Source of the DNA: Phenylobacterium sp.
GTDB lineage: Bacteria > Pseudomonadota > Alphaproteobacteria > Caulobacterales > Caulobacteraceae
Assembly (NCBI RefSeq): GCF_004299445.1
Contig: NZ_SCTC01000068.1
Location: 1 to 64,000 of the forward strand
DNA: 64,000 nt
Reading direction: 5' to 3'
Of the stretch, positions 33,702 to 42,154 are shown piece by piece. The notes under the pieces are model-generated. The model had not been told where the DNA came from. It ran no database searches and saw nothing but the letters and a program-made list of their open reading frames with translations. Numbering within the stretch: the stretch's first letter is position 1; each line of letters opens with the position of its first letter. The translations under genes were made by a program, and so were the position numbers.

Positions 33702-35510
33702 GTGGCGAGCTTGCCGGACATCGCGGTCGATTCGGCGCTTGCGCGGCTGTTCCATCTGCCGCGTGCGCGGGACGCGACGGTGTGGTTCTCGCTGCCCGGC
33801 GGCTCGAAACTGTTCGGCCAGGGCGACGCCTCGGACATGCTCTATGTCGTGCGCGCCGGTCGCCTGGGCGCGTTCCGCCGCGATGAAGGGCAGGAGACGC
33901 ACTTTCTGGGCATCATCCGTCCCGGCGAGCCCGCCGGCGAAATGGCCCTGATCGCGGGCATCCCCCACTCGGCCGATGTCTATGCTCTGCGCGACTCCGA
34001 GATCTTTGCGGTGCCGAAGAAGGCCTTCTTCGAAGCCTGCGACGAGGACGCCTCGGTGATGACCGAACTGGCGCGGCTGATGATCCTGCGCAGCCGCCAG
34101 ACGGCGCGCCGGGGCCCGGTGGGCGAGCCGTCGGTGTTCGGCTTCATCCCGGTTGGCCGGCCTGGTCCTGTGCGGCCCCTGGTCGAGCGGCTGGAGCGCG
34201 AGATCGCCGCGTTGGGGTACCAGGTGACCACCGTCGGCGCCGAGGCCGACGCCGCGCCTACCGAATGGTTCTCGGAAGTCGAGCGGGTGCACGACTTCGT
34301 CCTCTATGTCGCCGAGCGCGACGAACCCGACTGGGCCGCCTTCGTGCCGCGCCAGGTGGACCGGCTGTTCCGGGTGGGCCGCGGCGACCGCACGGCCGAG
34401 AGCGACGGCTGTCCGCCCGGAGCCGCCACGCTGCAGGAACAGGGACTCGTCGACCTGGTTCTTCTCCAGTCGCCCGAGGCCATCAGGCCCGTGGGCACCG
34501 AAGCCTGGCTCGACTCCACCAGCGCCTCCCGCGTTTTCCACATCCGCCGAGGGCACACGCCCGACCACCAGCGGCTGGCCCGGGTGCTGACCGGGCAATC
34601 GGTGGGGCTGGTCCTGTCGGGTGGCGGTGCGCGGGCCTACGCCCACGTCGGCGCGATCAATGCGCTGCGCGAGCGGGGCGTCCCTATCGACTTCGTGGGC
34701 GGCTCGTCGATGGGGGCCATCGTGGGCGCGGGCTTGGCCATGGGCTGGGGCCAGGACGAGATGGATCGCCGTCTGCACGAAGCCTTCGTCGACTCCAGCC
34801 CGCTCGACGACATGGCGCTGCCGCTGCTGGCCATGACGCATGGCGTCAAGGTGACCGAGCGCCTGAACACCCACTTCGGCGACACTCAGATCGCCGACCT
34901 CTGGCTGCCCTTCTTCTGCCTATCGTCCAACCTGACCACCGGCGCCTACCAGCTGCACCGCCGCGGCTCGCTGACCCACTCGCTGCGAGCCTCCATCGCC
35001 CTCCCTGGCGTCATGCCGCCCGCAACCGACGGCCAGAACGTGCTGGTGGACGGTGCGGTGATGAAGAACTTTCCCGCCGACATCATGCGGGCCGGCCAGC
35101 TGGGCCCCATCGTGGGCGTCGACGTGACGACCGCGCGCAGCATCACCGCCAAGGACGTGGCCCGCCCCTCCTCGGTCTGGCGCTGGATTCGCTCGGGCCA
35201 ATGGCGGATGGGCCCGCCGATCGTCTCCCTCTTGATGCGTACAGCTACCGTCTCGACCGGCCGCGACCTCGCGGCGGCCCGCGAAGCCACCGACGTCCTG
35301 ATCCAGCCTGACGTCTCCGGCATCGAAATCCGCAACTGGGAGGCCTACGACGCCGCGGTCGAGGCCGGGTATCGGGCCGCGATCGCCGCATTGGACAAGC
35401 TGCAGAAGCCGGTCACCGAGGTGCGTCGTCGCCCCAGTCTGCGCGAACAAGCGGCGGCCGGCGCCGTGATGTCGCCCTTCATCGCGTCCACCCACGAGGC
35501 CGCCGAATGA
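33702..35510 (+). CDS. cyclic-nucleotide-binding patatin-like phospholipase
   Basis: A 602-residue protein with an N-terminal cNMP-binding fold (about residues 20-130, LFGQGDASDMLYVVRAGRLG, GEPAGEMALIAG), a middle Rossmann-like region, and a C-terminal patatin domain with the glycine loop SGGGARAYAHVG, nucleophile Ser336 in GGSSMG, and the acid in VDGAVMKNFP. The layout matches the neuropathy-target-esterase / RssA-like group of lysophospholipases. Start is a GTG at 33702. Whether a cyclic nucleotide actually binds is unknown. Confidence 0.9.
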   Translation: MASLPDIAVDSALARLFHLPRARDATVWFSLPGGSKLFGQGDASDMLYVVRAGRLGAFRRDEGQETHFLGIIRPGEPAGEMALIAGIPHSADVYALRDSEIFAVPKKAFFEACDEDASVMTELARLMILRSRQTARRGPVGEPSVFGFIPVGRPGPVRPLVERLEREIAALGYQVTTVGAEADAAPTEWFSEVERVHDFVLYVAERDEPDWAAFVPRQVDRLFRVGRGDRTAESDGCPPGAATLQEQGLVDLVLLQSPEAIRPVGTEAWLDSTSASRVFHIRRGHTPDHQRLARVLTGQSVGLVLSGGGARAYAHVGAINALRERGVPIDFVGGSSMGAIVGAGLAMGWGQDEMDRRLHEAFVDSSPLDDMALPLLAMTHGVKVTERLNTHFGDTQIADLWLPFFCLSSNLTTGAYQLHRRGSLTHSLRASIALPGVMPPATDGQNVLVDGAVMKNFPADIMRAGQLGPIVGVDVTTARSITAKDVARPSSVWRWIRSGQWRMGPPIVSLLMRTATVSTGRDLAAAREATDVLIQPDVSGIEIRNWEAYDAAVEAGYRAAIAALDKLQKPVTEVRRRPSLREQAAAGAVMSPFIASTHEAAE

Positions 35511-35516
35511 GGCCCT

Positions 35517-35544
35517 TTGCGTCCGCCGAAACGCACGCCATAGT
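35517..35544 (+). promoter_or_regulatory. candidate sigma-70 promoter of the 22-codon mini-gene
   Basis: TTGCGT and CATAGT, separated by 16 bp, lie just after the patatin stop codon and would start transcription near 35551, about 30 bases before the mini-gene start. Each box matches the consensus at four of six positions. Confidence 0.35.
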
Positions 35545-35581
35545 CCTCGCGTCTACTCAACCATTGAAAGGAGGTGATCCA

Positions 35582-35650
35582 GTGTCTCATAGCTCTAGCC
35601 GCCAAGCGGTGACCGTGACCTGGACCTCCGTGAACGGGGTCTGCGCCTAG
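35582..35650 (+). CDS. 22-codon mini-gene with an extreme Shine-Dalgarno sequence
   Basis: A GTG-started frame of 22 codons encoding a serine/threonine/valine-rich peptide that begins MSHSSSRQAV and ends VNGVCA. The sequence before it, GAAAGGAGGTGATCCAG (35566-35582), is complementary over 17 bases to the 3' end of alphaproteobacterial 16S rRNA, reaching into the first base of the start codon; normal genes match 4-6 bases. Spacing of GGAGG to the start is seven bases. A small hairpin and an intrinsic terminator follow, so the unit appears to be a separate short transcript. Function unknown; either the peptide or the ribosome-binding RNA could matter. Confidence 0.6.
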   Translation: MSHSSSRQAVTVTWTSVNGVCA

Positions 35651-35695
35651 CCAAGGCTGGCAAGGTCGCGAACCGCTGAAGCGGTCCGACTATGG

Positions 35696-35728
35696 AAGGG
35701 CCGTCCCAGCAATGGGGCGGCCCTTTGC
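35696..35728 (+). terminator. intrinsic terminator after the mini-gene
   Basis: AAGGGCCGTCCC and GGGGCGGCCCTT pair over 12 bp, with one G-U, around a six-base loop, and the stem ends in TT. It would end the mini-gene transcript. A five-base-pair hairpin with a TGAA loop at 35672-35685 lies before it. Confidence 0.8.
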
Positions 35729-35743
35729 TATCCGGTAATGGCC

Positions 35744-37627
35744 TCAGGCCGCATCGATGGCCTCTAGGGGCGCAGAATCGGCCGCCTGGAGCAGCACCTT
35801 CAGGAGCGCCGTCACGAACTGGTCGGCCTTGAACGGCTTGGAGATGAAGTCGTCCATGCCGGCGGCCCTGCACGCCTCCTCGTCGCTCTTCATGGCGTTG
35901 GCGGTCATGGCGACGATCGGGATGCGCGAGACCGGCCCCGAGAGCGCGCGGATTCTCCGGGTGGCCTCCAGCCCGTCCATCACCGGCATCTGCACGTCCA
36001 TCAGCACAAGATCGTAGCCTCCGCGCAGGACGGCCTCGACGGCTTCCTCGCCGTTCCTGACGCGTTCGACGGCCAGGCCCACCTGGCGGACGATTTCAGC
36101 GGCCAGCATGGCGTTGACGTCGTTGTCCTCGGCCAGCAGCACCCGCGCGTGCTGCGACGGCTCGCTGGGAGGTTGGGCCGCCGCGCTCTCGACCTCGGGC
36201 GCCACGCCAGGCTCCAGTTCGACTTCGAACCAGAACACCGCGCCGCCGCCTCGTCTGTCGGACACACCGATGCGGCCGCCCATCAGCTCGATCAGCTGGC
36301 GCGAGATCGAAAGGCCCAGACCCGTGCCGCCGAAGCGGCGCGTGGTCGAACTGTCGGCCTGCTGGAAATTGCGGAACAGTTTGGTCTTCTGGGCATCGTC
36401 GACCCCGATGCCCGTGTCTCGCACCTCGGCCCGCACCCGGGTCCGGCCCATGGCCCCGCGCAGAGCGCTGACGTCCAGGGTAACCTGGCCCTTCTCGGTG
36501 AACTTGAGCCCATTCGAAAGCAGGTTGAGCAGCACCTGACGCAGGCGCTGCGGATCGCCCTTGAACGACTTGCGGGCGCCGGGCGCGATGTTGCAGGTCA
36601 TCTCCAGGCCCTTCTCGGTCGCCAGGGGCGACAGCAGCAGGACGGCTTCCTCAGCCAGGGCCTGGAAACTGAAATCGATGGCCTCGATCTCGACCTTGCC
36701 CGCCTCCAGTTTCGAGATATCCAGGATGTCGTTGATGATCGCCAGGAGCGCGTCGGCCGAGCTGCGGATGGTGTCGGCATAGCGGCGCTGTTGGGCCGTG
36801 AGATCCGTGCGGAGCAGGAGCTCGTTCATGCCCATGATGCCGTTCATGGGCGTGCGGATCTCATGGCTCATGTTGGCCAGGAACTGGCTCTTCGCCCGAT
36901 TGGCCGCCTCGGCCTCGTCCCGCGCGCGGAACAGCTGCTGCTCGGCGGCTTCAGAGGCCGCGAGAGCCTGGCGCAGCTCGCGCATCACCTTGTTGGCCTG
37001 GACCCGGTCGTTCACGGCCCCGCCGATCAGGCGTTGGGTGGCGAAGATGATCAGGACGCAGGCGAAGGCGTAGAACAACAGGCTGAGGACCACGCCCAGC
37101 GCGGACAGGCCCAGCATCGCCGGTGCGTAGGCGATCACCACGCCAACCGGCGCCGGCAGCGCCGTGGCGACCCACACGCGCTTCGACATCCAGCCCAACG
37201 CCCCGGCGGTGACGGCCAGCGTCGCGGCTGTCATCGCCAACAGGGCGTGCGCGCCTGGCGTACCCAGGGCTGCAACCGCGTACATCGGCCCGACCATCCA
37301 GGCCGCCGAACGCACCACGGACAGGACCGCCAGCGCGATGAGGCCCTGGTCCTCGGGCGTCGCATCGGCCTTGGGCGGCCACGCCTTGAGAAGCGACTGC
37401 TGGACCACCTGTACGGCGAGGGATCCGGCGCACCAGACCGCTGCGAACAGCGGCAGGCCCAGGGCCGCGACGGCGCCGCAGCCCAGCACATGAAAGACGA
37501 CAGAGATGGGCCAGGGTTGCAGCATTCCGACGAGCGTCGTCCGGAACGCCGTGGGGTCTCCCTCCTCGGCGCCGGGCAACTTGATGTCATCGGCCTGAGC
37601 GGCCATGGCGTCCTGAAGAGGTCGCAT
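35744..37627 (-). CDS. hybrid sensor histidine kinase with membrane input domain
   Basis: A 627-residue hybrid kinase. Six or so hydrophobic segments span residues 35-200, with no recognised sensor fold. A coiled region leads to the HisKA domain (phospho-His in [11 protein letters not shown]), the HATPase domain ([27 protein letters not shown]), and a C-terminal receiver with phospho-Asp in [13 protein letters not shown]. The start is uncertain: 37627 is the first ATG, with AAGG nine bases upstream. A cognate partner is not adjacent. It converges with the mini-gene terminator. Confidence 0.93.
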
Positions 37628-37778
37628 TCGACCAGCCTTGCCATGCAACCCGTAAAGGAATGGCGAGGACGGGTGGCGCGCATTGGGGCGGAATGTCGCA
37701 TAGTGGCCATAGCGCCGGACGCCCGCTCATTACCTGGGAGGTCATGGACGCGCCACAGGCCGTGGCTAGGATTGCGCC

Positions 37779-42069: not shown

Positions 42070-42154
42070 TGGTGCGGTCGAGAAGACTCGAACTTCCACG
42101 GGTTGCCCCACAGCGACCTCAACGCTGCGCGTCTACCAATTCCGCCACGACCGC
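42070..42154 (-). tRNA. tRNA-Leu (anticodon GAG)
   Basis: On the minus strand an 85-base tRNA with acceptor stem GCGGTCG/CGACCGC, D-loop AATTGGTAGACGCG, anticodon GAG in the loop TTGAGGT, a long variable arm (TGTGGGGCAACCCGT region) and T-loop GTTCGAGTC. The long variable arm is typical of a leucine tRNA. CCA is encoded at 42070-42072. The upstream/downstream sequence holds no other tRNA. Confidence 0.96.

Follow-up and report, generated by a model that had tools for sequence, protein, structure and literature searches.

The window (the whole 64,000-nt stretch of Phenylobacterium sp. DNA that was analysed) carries a small unit between two protein-coding genes. Upstream of it and on the same strand, at positions 33702–35510, is a gene with cNMP-binding and patatin domains; downstream is a convergent gene for a hybrid histidine kinase (35744–37648, minus strand). 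An Rfam scan of the window yields two matches. One is a tRNA gene at 42073–42154 on the minus strand (RF00005) and the other, which covers the unit, is RF01867, the CC2171 "caulobacter sRNA". The features of the unit are listed in Table 1.

Table 1. Features of the unit, in window positions
Feature	Position	Strand	Basis
Candidate promoter, TTTGCG - 17 nt - CATAGT, imperfect	35516–35544	+	Read from sequence
RF01867 CC2171 small RNA	35558–35724	+	Model positions 1–159, end to end; 92.2 bits (gathering score 75), E = 9e-18
Extended Shine-Dalgarno (SD), 17-nt complement of the 16S 3′ tail	35566–35582	+	Exact match; tail read in L235
22-codon frame, GTG start (35582–35584), TAG stop (35648–35650), peptide VSHSSSRQAVTVTWTSVNGVCA	35582–35650	+	
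Long-range helix, 5′ arm CATAG(C)TC, codons 3–5	35588–35595	+	MFE fold, covariation; the RF01867 consensus helix joins the same regions
Anti-SD-like stretch CCTGGACCTCC within the frame	35619–35629	+	Possible SD pairing GGAGG(UGA)UCCAG; MFE places it in the main stem
Small hairpin ACCGC-TGAA-GCGGT, 3′ of the stop	35672–35685	+	RF01867 consensus alignment; MFE pairs it with the frame instead
Long-range helix, 3′ arm GACTATG, abutting the terminator	35688–35694	+	MFE fold, covariation
Terminator hairpin, 14 bp, 4-nt loop, short T run	35695–35729	+	MFE fold

The 22-codon frame opening with GTG, which was proposed in an initial annotation of this DNA, is borne out at the positions given in the table. 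The further proposal of an independent unit stands in part. The unit appears small and free-standing and ends in a hairpin with a short T run, but its candidate promoter is imperfect, and a strict scan called no sigma-70 promoter and no intrinsic terminator at the unit. A heuristic search calls a terminator hairpin in 186 of 197 distinct unit sequences. At about the same distance as CATAGT, 5 of the 13 relatives with listed upstream sequence have CATATT and 4 have CATATC or CATACT; an ungapped profile built from the window's type (68 loci) has no conserved promoter columns.

Immediately 5′ of the SD, some relatives (L018, L011 and L002 among them) display the sequence TGTTCAACA, often within the near-palindrome CTGTTCAACAG. 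The unit in the window retains only CAAC of this element, which is a candidate leader element or operator.

The 17-mer, its RNA family and its spread

The 17-mer GAAAGGAGGTGATCCAG is present as a single exact copy in the window, and this is also the only exact occurrence in the draft genome (4,900,969 bases), where base composition predicts about 0.0002 copies by chance. With up to three mismatches there are 2 matches in the window (0.16 expected from shuffles) and 19 places in the genome, and apart from the exact copy all 18 of these carry three mismatches. The reversed control of GAAAGGAGGTGATCCAG is found at 5 genome places at the same setting. No 16S gene was recognisable in the draft genome, and the tail was taken from a genome of the same family (L235), whose positions 1501–1520 read gaaaggaggtgatccagccg, antisense to the 16S end. 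Because this tail shows the antisense sequence, all 17 bases of the SD pair with it. The match to the whole 3′ tail, entering the GTG at 35582, had been noted in the initial annotation and is exact and unique. The predicted duplex of the 17-mer with the tail has an energy of −32.4 kcal/mol versus −10.1 kcal/mol for AAGGAGG, in agreement with the earlier remark that the complement extends far beyond what translation needs.

The RF01867 alignment takes in the SD, the first codons, the helix between these codons and the region before the terminator, and the terminator itself. The closing helix of the family is present in the unit (CATAG(C)TC with GACTATG in the MFE fold) and covaries within the window's type. 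RF01867 matches were found at E ≤ 0.001 in 100 of 200 genomes of the order, in 31 of them above the cut-off. The other 100 gave no match under strict filters, with which weak matches are lost, and the same filters left 5 of the 20 listed genomes of the window's own family without one. The unit is therefore either dispensable or diverged past detection in the genomes without a match. Caulobacter vibrioides is the sole positive among 14 named control genomes. CC2171 reportedly goes back to a survey of small RNAs by Landt et al. 2008. Elsewhere, RF01867 is listed in the available excerpt on Rfam 15 among the improved families, with one extra covarying pair (PMC11701678), and an sRNA of Mesorhizobium huakuii is assigned to it in the accessible part of another report (PMC5596092).

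The unit matches the model of this family over its full length, above the gathering score. It differs in kind from the Rfam entry, which is typed as an sRNA gene, in that it keeps a start codon and a frame, and because of these it is better called a small mRNA or a dual RNA.

A close parallel is rreB, which Hahn et al. 2017 (RNA Biol 14:1353) reportedly described in Bradyrhizobiaceae as a 165-nt mRNA with a 17-nt SD, a GTG start and 14 codons. It was reportedly found with the 30S subunit, was weakly translated, and was stabilised by a start-to-stop change. The same authors are said to have seen similar sites in Caulobacterales, Rhizobiales, Rhodobacterales and Rhodospirillales, and to have named the 18-codon form of the Rhodobacter/Roseobacter lineage rreR. 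One mark of these RNAs is reportedly complementarity of 16 nt or more to the 3′ end of 16S, placed immediately ahead of a small frame; the unit has 17 nt. A second mark is a stand-alone transcript of about 165 nt that has its own terminator, and at the unit the imperfect TTTGCG/CATAGT pair and the 3′ hairpin are present. Shared features are the 17-nt SD for the 16S 3′ end, a GTG or ATG start and a tiny frame, and in the unit's case a putative stand-alone RNA of about 165 nt. The peptides of rreB (14 codons) and rreR (18 codons) differ from that of the unit, which has 22 codons and unrelated residues, and the unit is therefore of the rreB/rreR kind but not an ortholog by peptide.

The CC2171 model also scores such units at the expected places below its cut-off of 75, in Bradyrhizobium (41.7 bits), Sphingomonas (41.4), Luteovulum (37.0) and Mesorhizobium (33.8), and it places loci of Bosea, Brevundimonas, Microvirga and Falsiroseomonas above the cut-off; the scores of the distant types are in part SD-driven, since the SD is common to all. 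Judged from sequence, the CC2171, rreB, rreR, Sphingomonas and Mesorhizobium types are likely one loose class, a union that is unproven for the distant types. In the literature searched, CC2171 is nowhere linked to rreB, nor is either one linked to arfB; this is not proof, as Hahn 2017 and Landt 2008 lay outside the search.

Extended SD motifs are also reported for Staphylococcus aureus. Going by the available portion of that report, the SD-anti-SD helix is likewise longer and extends toward the start codon, but as a feature of many genes (PMC13009471), whereas here there is one dedicated RNA with the complete complement of the tail.

A pattern scan of named genomes detected the unit in at least 119 stretches. 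These and 23 from the class search, the window's own included, make up 142 matches, of which 137 open a frame of 14–26 codons, with two cut off by the end of the sequence. A 25-mer search with up to three mismatches of any kind gave 64 places in 63 of 385 genomes of the class, and the reversed 25-mer gave none among the matches listed for these genomes. Conservation of the 17-mer followed by a GTG or ATG frame, for which the initial annotation had proposed a search in relatives, is thus widespread in Alphaproteobacteria. That annotation had also named a lack of conservation of peptide or 17-mer in relatives as a point against it; the 17-mer is conserved, and for the peptide no consistent constraint was seen among loci of the window's type.

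In all, 197 distinct sequences fit the pattern. The analysis of the helix arms retained 165 of them, leaving out those with no terminator call, a call inside the frame or a short 3′ part, duplicates, and L142; 118 representatives of the 165 were folded. L142, from a record named Gemmatimonadota bacterium bin1194, has an extended SD, a GTG and a 21-codon frame, and the remainder of its unit is unlike the others. A binning error, chance and a separate origin are candidate explanations for its place outside the Alphaproteobacteria. One genome of the class (G211) has two unit matches, at C1:805112 and C1:2922045.

Pairing, frame and fold in relatives

Substitutions in the SD show which property is kept. 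At the 64 places there are 18 substitutions at SD positions 1–15. All 10 that fall at positions 2–14 are A-to-G changes, which retain a G-U pair with the 16S tail, although position 12 alone supplies 7 of these 10 and the relatives are not independent. The five substitutions that break pairing are at the ends (two at position 1 and three at position 15), and three further changes at position 15 are C-to-T with pairing to the 16S retained.

The frame is also kept. It has 14 codons in all eight Bradyrhizobium-type loci and 18 codons in 24 of 25 Sphingomonadales-type loci, the latter type being defined by frames of 20 codons or less and the Rhodobacterales type by frames of 18. TAA, TAG and TGA each serve as the stop codon in the Bradyrhizobium, Sphingomonadales and Rhodobacterales types, and this exchange of stops is better evidence for the frame, because two of the groups are partly or wholly defined by length.

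The peptide sequences are wholly unlike between clades. Bradyrhizobium relatives have V-S-x-x-K-R-C-H-L-A-G-I-A-R (14 codons, from GTG) and a typical Rhodobacterales sequence, of 18 codons, has V-S-R-V-I-L-E-R-G-V-G-T. Codon 2 is a serine codon (TCN) in 63 of the 64 places, even with up to three mismatches allowed, and the start codon before it is ATG, GTG or, in three cases, TTG. In two loci of Azospirillum sp. B21 (L074 and L200), the same extended SD with a ATGTCTCAT start precedes a longer frame of 56 or 59 codons with a signal-peptide-like beginning.

The RNA of the window has a predicted fold of −87.9 kcal/mol (z = −5.35 versus shuffles). In the MFE structure the SD forms only a 3-bp local hairpin inside the 17-mer, and CATAG(C)TC of codons 3–5 pairs with the GACTATG directly before the terminator. 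With more downstream sequence included, the unpaired probability of the SD core is 0.35 (L001).

The two arms of this long-range helix change together in relatives, as in CATTGTC/GACAATG, CATAGTT/GACTATG, CATTCTC/GAGAATG and CATTGTT/AACAATG. When arm energies were permuted, none of 2000 permutations reached the pairing of the loci's own arms, both for all 165 loci and within the window's type; in the MSS type 3 of 2000 did so. The Rhodobacterales type gives no support for covariation of the arms, since 1611 of 2000 permutations equal the real pairing; the Sphingomonadales arms are uninformative (1847 of 2000). A count of arms with at least six of seven pairs gives 46 of 50, versus a mean of 40.6 and a maximum of 44 in 200 swaps; this is weaker evidence than the energy permutations because most arms are identical.

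The state of the SD appears to differ between types. The SD core, mostly paired in the predicted folds of rreB- and rreR-like RNAs, is more open in those of the window's type: its mean unpaired probability is 0.11 for rreB-like (3 representatives), 0.05 for rreR-like (19) and 0.32 for the window's type (50). Shuffling the middle part of the RNA raises this value from 0.05 to 0.24 in Rhodobacterales (the real sequence is lower in 17 of 19), where the predicted partner is mainly in the 3′ part. For the Bradyrhizobium type the corresponding values are 0.11 and 0.21 (lower in 3 of 3), with the partner inside the frame. The comparable figures are 0.33 versus 0.25 in the window's type, where the test covered the first 20 of its 50 representatives (lower in 5), 0.28 versus 0.25 in the MSS type (7 of 20, out of 22) and 0.28 versus 0.29 in Sphingomonadales (5 of 14). 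Compared with dinucleotide shuffles, SD-core duplexes reach p ≤ 0.05 in 29 of the 118 representatives and in none of the 14 from Sphingomonadales; in all these SD-core comparisons the relatives are not independent. The folding models thus predict a buried SD in the Rhodobacterales and Bradyrhizobium types and an open one in the window's type. Position 12 of the SD is joined to its partner as G-C in 18 of 22 cases and as A-U in 59 of 96 (37 unpaired), and this covariation was left unused, being for the most part a consequence of the pairing rule.

The best site for SD pairing within the window's RNA is CCTGGACCTCC, with a duplex of −14.9 kcal/mol. It falls within an inner segment of the frame that is well conserved as measured by entropy, both among 22-codon frames (16 loci) and among 25-codon frames (7 loci). 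A self-sequestered SD was considered for this RNA and found no support: the duplex is no better than in shuffles (z = −1.1, p = 0.18), forcing it costs 8 kcal/mol, and in the window's type the SD core is, as given above, slightly more open than in shuffled sequences. Pairing of CCTGGACCTCC with the SD would cross the long-range helix, and to accommodate the two the RNA would need a pseudoknot or a switch.

Alternative explanations and the role of the unit

By its architecture, as read from the DNA, the unit is the Caulobacterales counterpart of rreB and rreR. It seems fairly probable, judging by the comparisons above, that it is an independent small mRNA of roughly 170 bases, of the same kind as CC2171, rreB and rreR, in which engagement of the ribosome, and not the peptide, has been kept by selection. 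In such an RNA the short 5′ end would expose the complement of the whole 16S tail, and the coding and 3′ parts would fold into a compact body, closed by the helix that runs from after the start codon to the terminator. A 30S subunit may dock at the GTG start by up to 17 bp and, if the modelled fold is correct, would then have to open the body in order to translate the 22 codons. Ribosome engagement (docking, a slow start, transit and stop) would probably set the lifetime of the RNA or its partner-binding state. Docking of the 30S in Phenylobacterium sp., weak initiation, an effect on RNA stability and a benefit to the cell are what we infer from these features.

Alternatively, the unit might exist to make a functional micropeptide, about 22 residues long, with the long SD merely securing its translation. 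This is in keeping with the retention of start and frame in relatives, and a highly translated small peptide was one suggestion of the initial annotation, together with a check for synonymous bias in the 22 codons. The check was run as part of an amino acid constraint test, which is rough. Pooled over its seven lengths, the window's type has 425 single-base codon differences, and 114 of them are synonymous, a share of 0.27 versus about 0.31 expected. By length, the share in this type is 0.40 versus 0.30 for 20 codons and 0.35 versus 0.30 for 26, and there is a deficit at 24 codons (0.17 versus 0.35 expected). The Sphingomonadales also fall below expectation (0.23 versus 0.27), and the Rhodobacterales lie weakly above it (0.38 versus 0.30). 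Frames of 26 codons in the MSS subtype have a synonymous excess (0.61 versus 0.30); because they are constrained, the peptide may matter in that subtype. Composition effects disturb the test, since the reading in shifted frame 2 often gives a stronger signal of constraint than the real one does: 0.47 for frames of 22 codons and 0.53 for Sphingomonadales, with shifted-frame values reaching 0.53 in the larger groups. No consistent purifying selection was thus seen in the window's type, and the proposal of a highly translated micropeptide is not supported for it, within the limits of this rough test; the Bradyrhizobium relative, too, is reported to be weakly translated (Hahn et al. 2017). With residues that differ wholly from clade to clade as well, we regard a functional micropeptide as unlikely.

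The extended SD could instead be a decoy or target for anti-SD sRNAs, its match to the 16S being a by-product. Caulobacter crescentus has four sRNAs with a 10-mer anti-SD signature, SisA–D, and a sponge, CrfA, that titrates them, as stated in the available part of a recent report (PMC12559287). The likeness lies in an anti-SD-like RNA pairing in the same order as the window's unit. SisA–D, as far as that part of the report goes, carry the anti-SD and act with Hfq, whereas the RNA of the window carries the SD and a frame. A match of 17 nt exceeds what a 10-mer needs, and a decoy does not account for the start codon and frame being kept, so that this role is rather improbable.

Similarly improbable is a titrator of free 30S subunits, an abundant RNA that ties them up; the initial annotation had suggested this role or that of a sensor of free 30S subunits. 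The stability predicted for the duplex with the tail (−32.4 kcal/mol) and the retention of pairing by substitutions in the SD core would suit such a role, but copy numbers near those of ribosomes would be required, and a frame with a stop codon would be superfluous.

The neighbouring genes bear on the possibility that the unit is a cis-acting leader of an adjacent gene. In relatives the next gene is co-oriented at 66 of 155 loci. Nine of 46 clusters of neighbour genes mix sequence groups, and the most mixed is ArfB, an alternative ribosome-rescue hydrolase (NCBIfam equivalog NF006718 in the three proteins tested). The arfB gene is present near the unit in 25 of 232 loci, duplicates included. 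At 14 loci, which are Rhodobacterales by name or peptide type, it lies on the same strand, at a distance of 180 to 317 nt from the start of the SD to its own start; at four more this gene is farther downstream, by 1.1 to 1.6 kb. A divergent arfB upstream of the unit occurs in L170 (Hyphomonadaceae, 172 nt) and L263 (84 nt), and also, at 820 to 887 nt, in L055, L057, L058 and L061 (L242 repeats L055). Rhodobacterales-type units with arfB beside them include L119, L127, L129, L145, L150, L178, L186, L189, L221 and L223, among others. In the open sample of the class, an ArfB match was seen by eye within 300 nt at 2 of the 64 unit places, on the same strand and downstream of the unit in G449 and divergent in G226 (the same locus as L263); a rough guess for proximity by chance is about 0.02, from 1 kb of a 4-Mb genome per place.

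The examined flanks of the 68 window-type, 25 Sphingomonadales and 8 Bradyrhizobium-type loci contain no arfB. The link of unit and arfB looks real in a few lineages and, on these gene arrangements, is possibly old and since lost. It says nothing direct about the copy in the window. The Rhodobacterales unit may not be free-standing, because arfB often follows it on the same strand, and there the unit is perhaps a leader of arfB. Units like rreR often precede arfB; the window's unit does not. Its next gene is convergent and the single ArfB match of the genome is on another contig (C61), so that a leader or attenuator of a neighbour was rejected for it. With arfB also missing from the flanks of three types, a leader role for the unit is very unlikely.

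Lastly, the 17-mer is identical to the antisense of the 16S end, yet origin as a chance or degenerate copy of that end is ruled out for practical purposes by the genome counts, the expectation of only about 0.0002 copies per genome, the tail read in L235, and the conservation of frame, helix and terminator with the unit across many genera. The initial annotation likewise held that the 17-mer is not a 16S fragment.

The small-mRNA reading may be carried one step further, to a conjecture that we hold to be unlikely as it stands. The members of the class would be ribosome-state switches tied to ribosome rescue, in which the SD has two competing partners, a free 30S subunit and a 16S-tail copy within the RNA itself, and the signal is given by the open form and not by the peptide. 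This tail copy would lie in the coding part in Bradyrhizobium and in the 3′ part in Rhodobacterales, and in Caulobacterales might act through a pseudoknot with CCUGGACCUCC; the supply of ribosomes would choose between the closed and open forms. If this is true, the pathway that is served would be indicated by the arfB genes next to the unit in several lineages.

The Rfam CC2171 element and the rreB/rreR architecture were already known. Added here are the union of CC2171 with rreB/rreR, the evidence that pairing and frame are kept over the peptide, the split between buried and open SD, and the arfB neighbourhood. Together, the comparisons suggest that the Rfam "sRNA" CC2171 and the small mRNAs rreB and rreR form one alphaproteobacterial class, and that the features kept in it are the pairing with the ribosome and an open frame, not a peptide. 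The link with arfB in some lineages is, to our knowledge, the first functional hint for this class. In C. crescentus an SD is present on 24.6% of coding sequences, according to the available excerpt of PMC4117421. If ribosome engagement is the signal, the unit would give a simple genetic readout of free 30S subunits, acting in a group where few genes rely on the SD.
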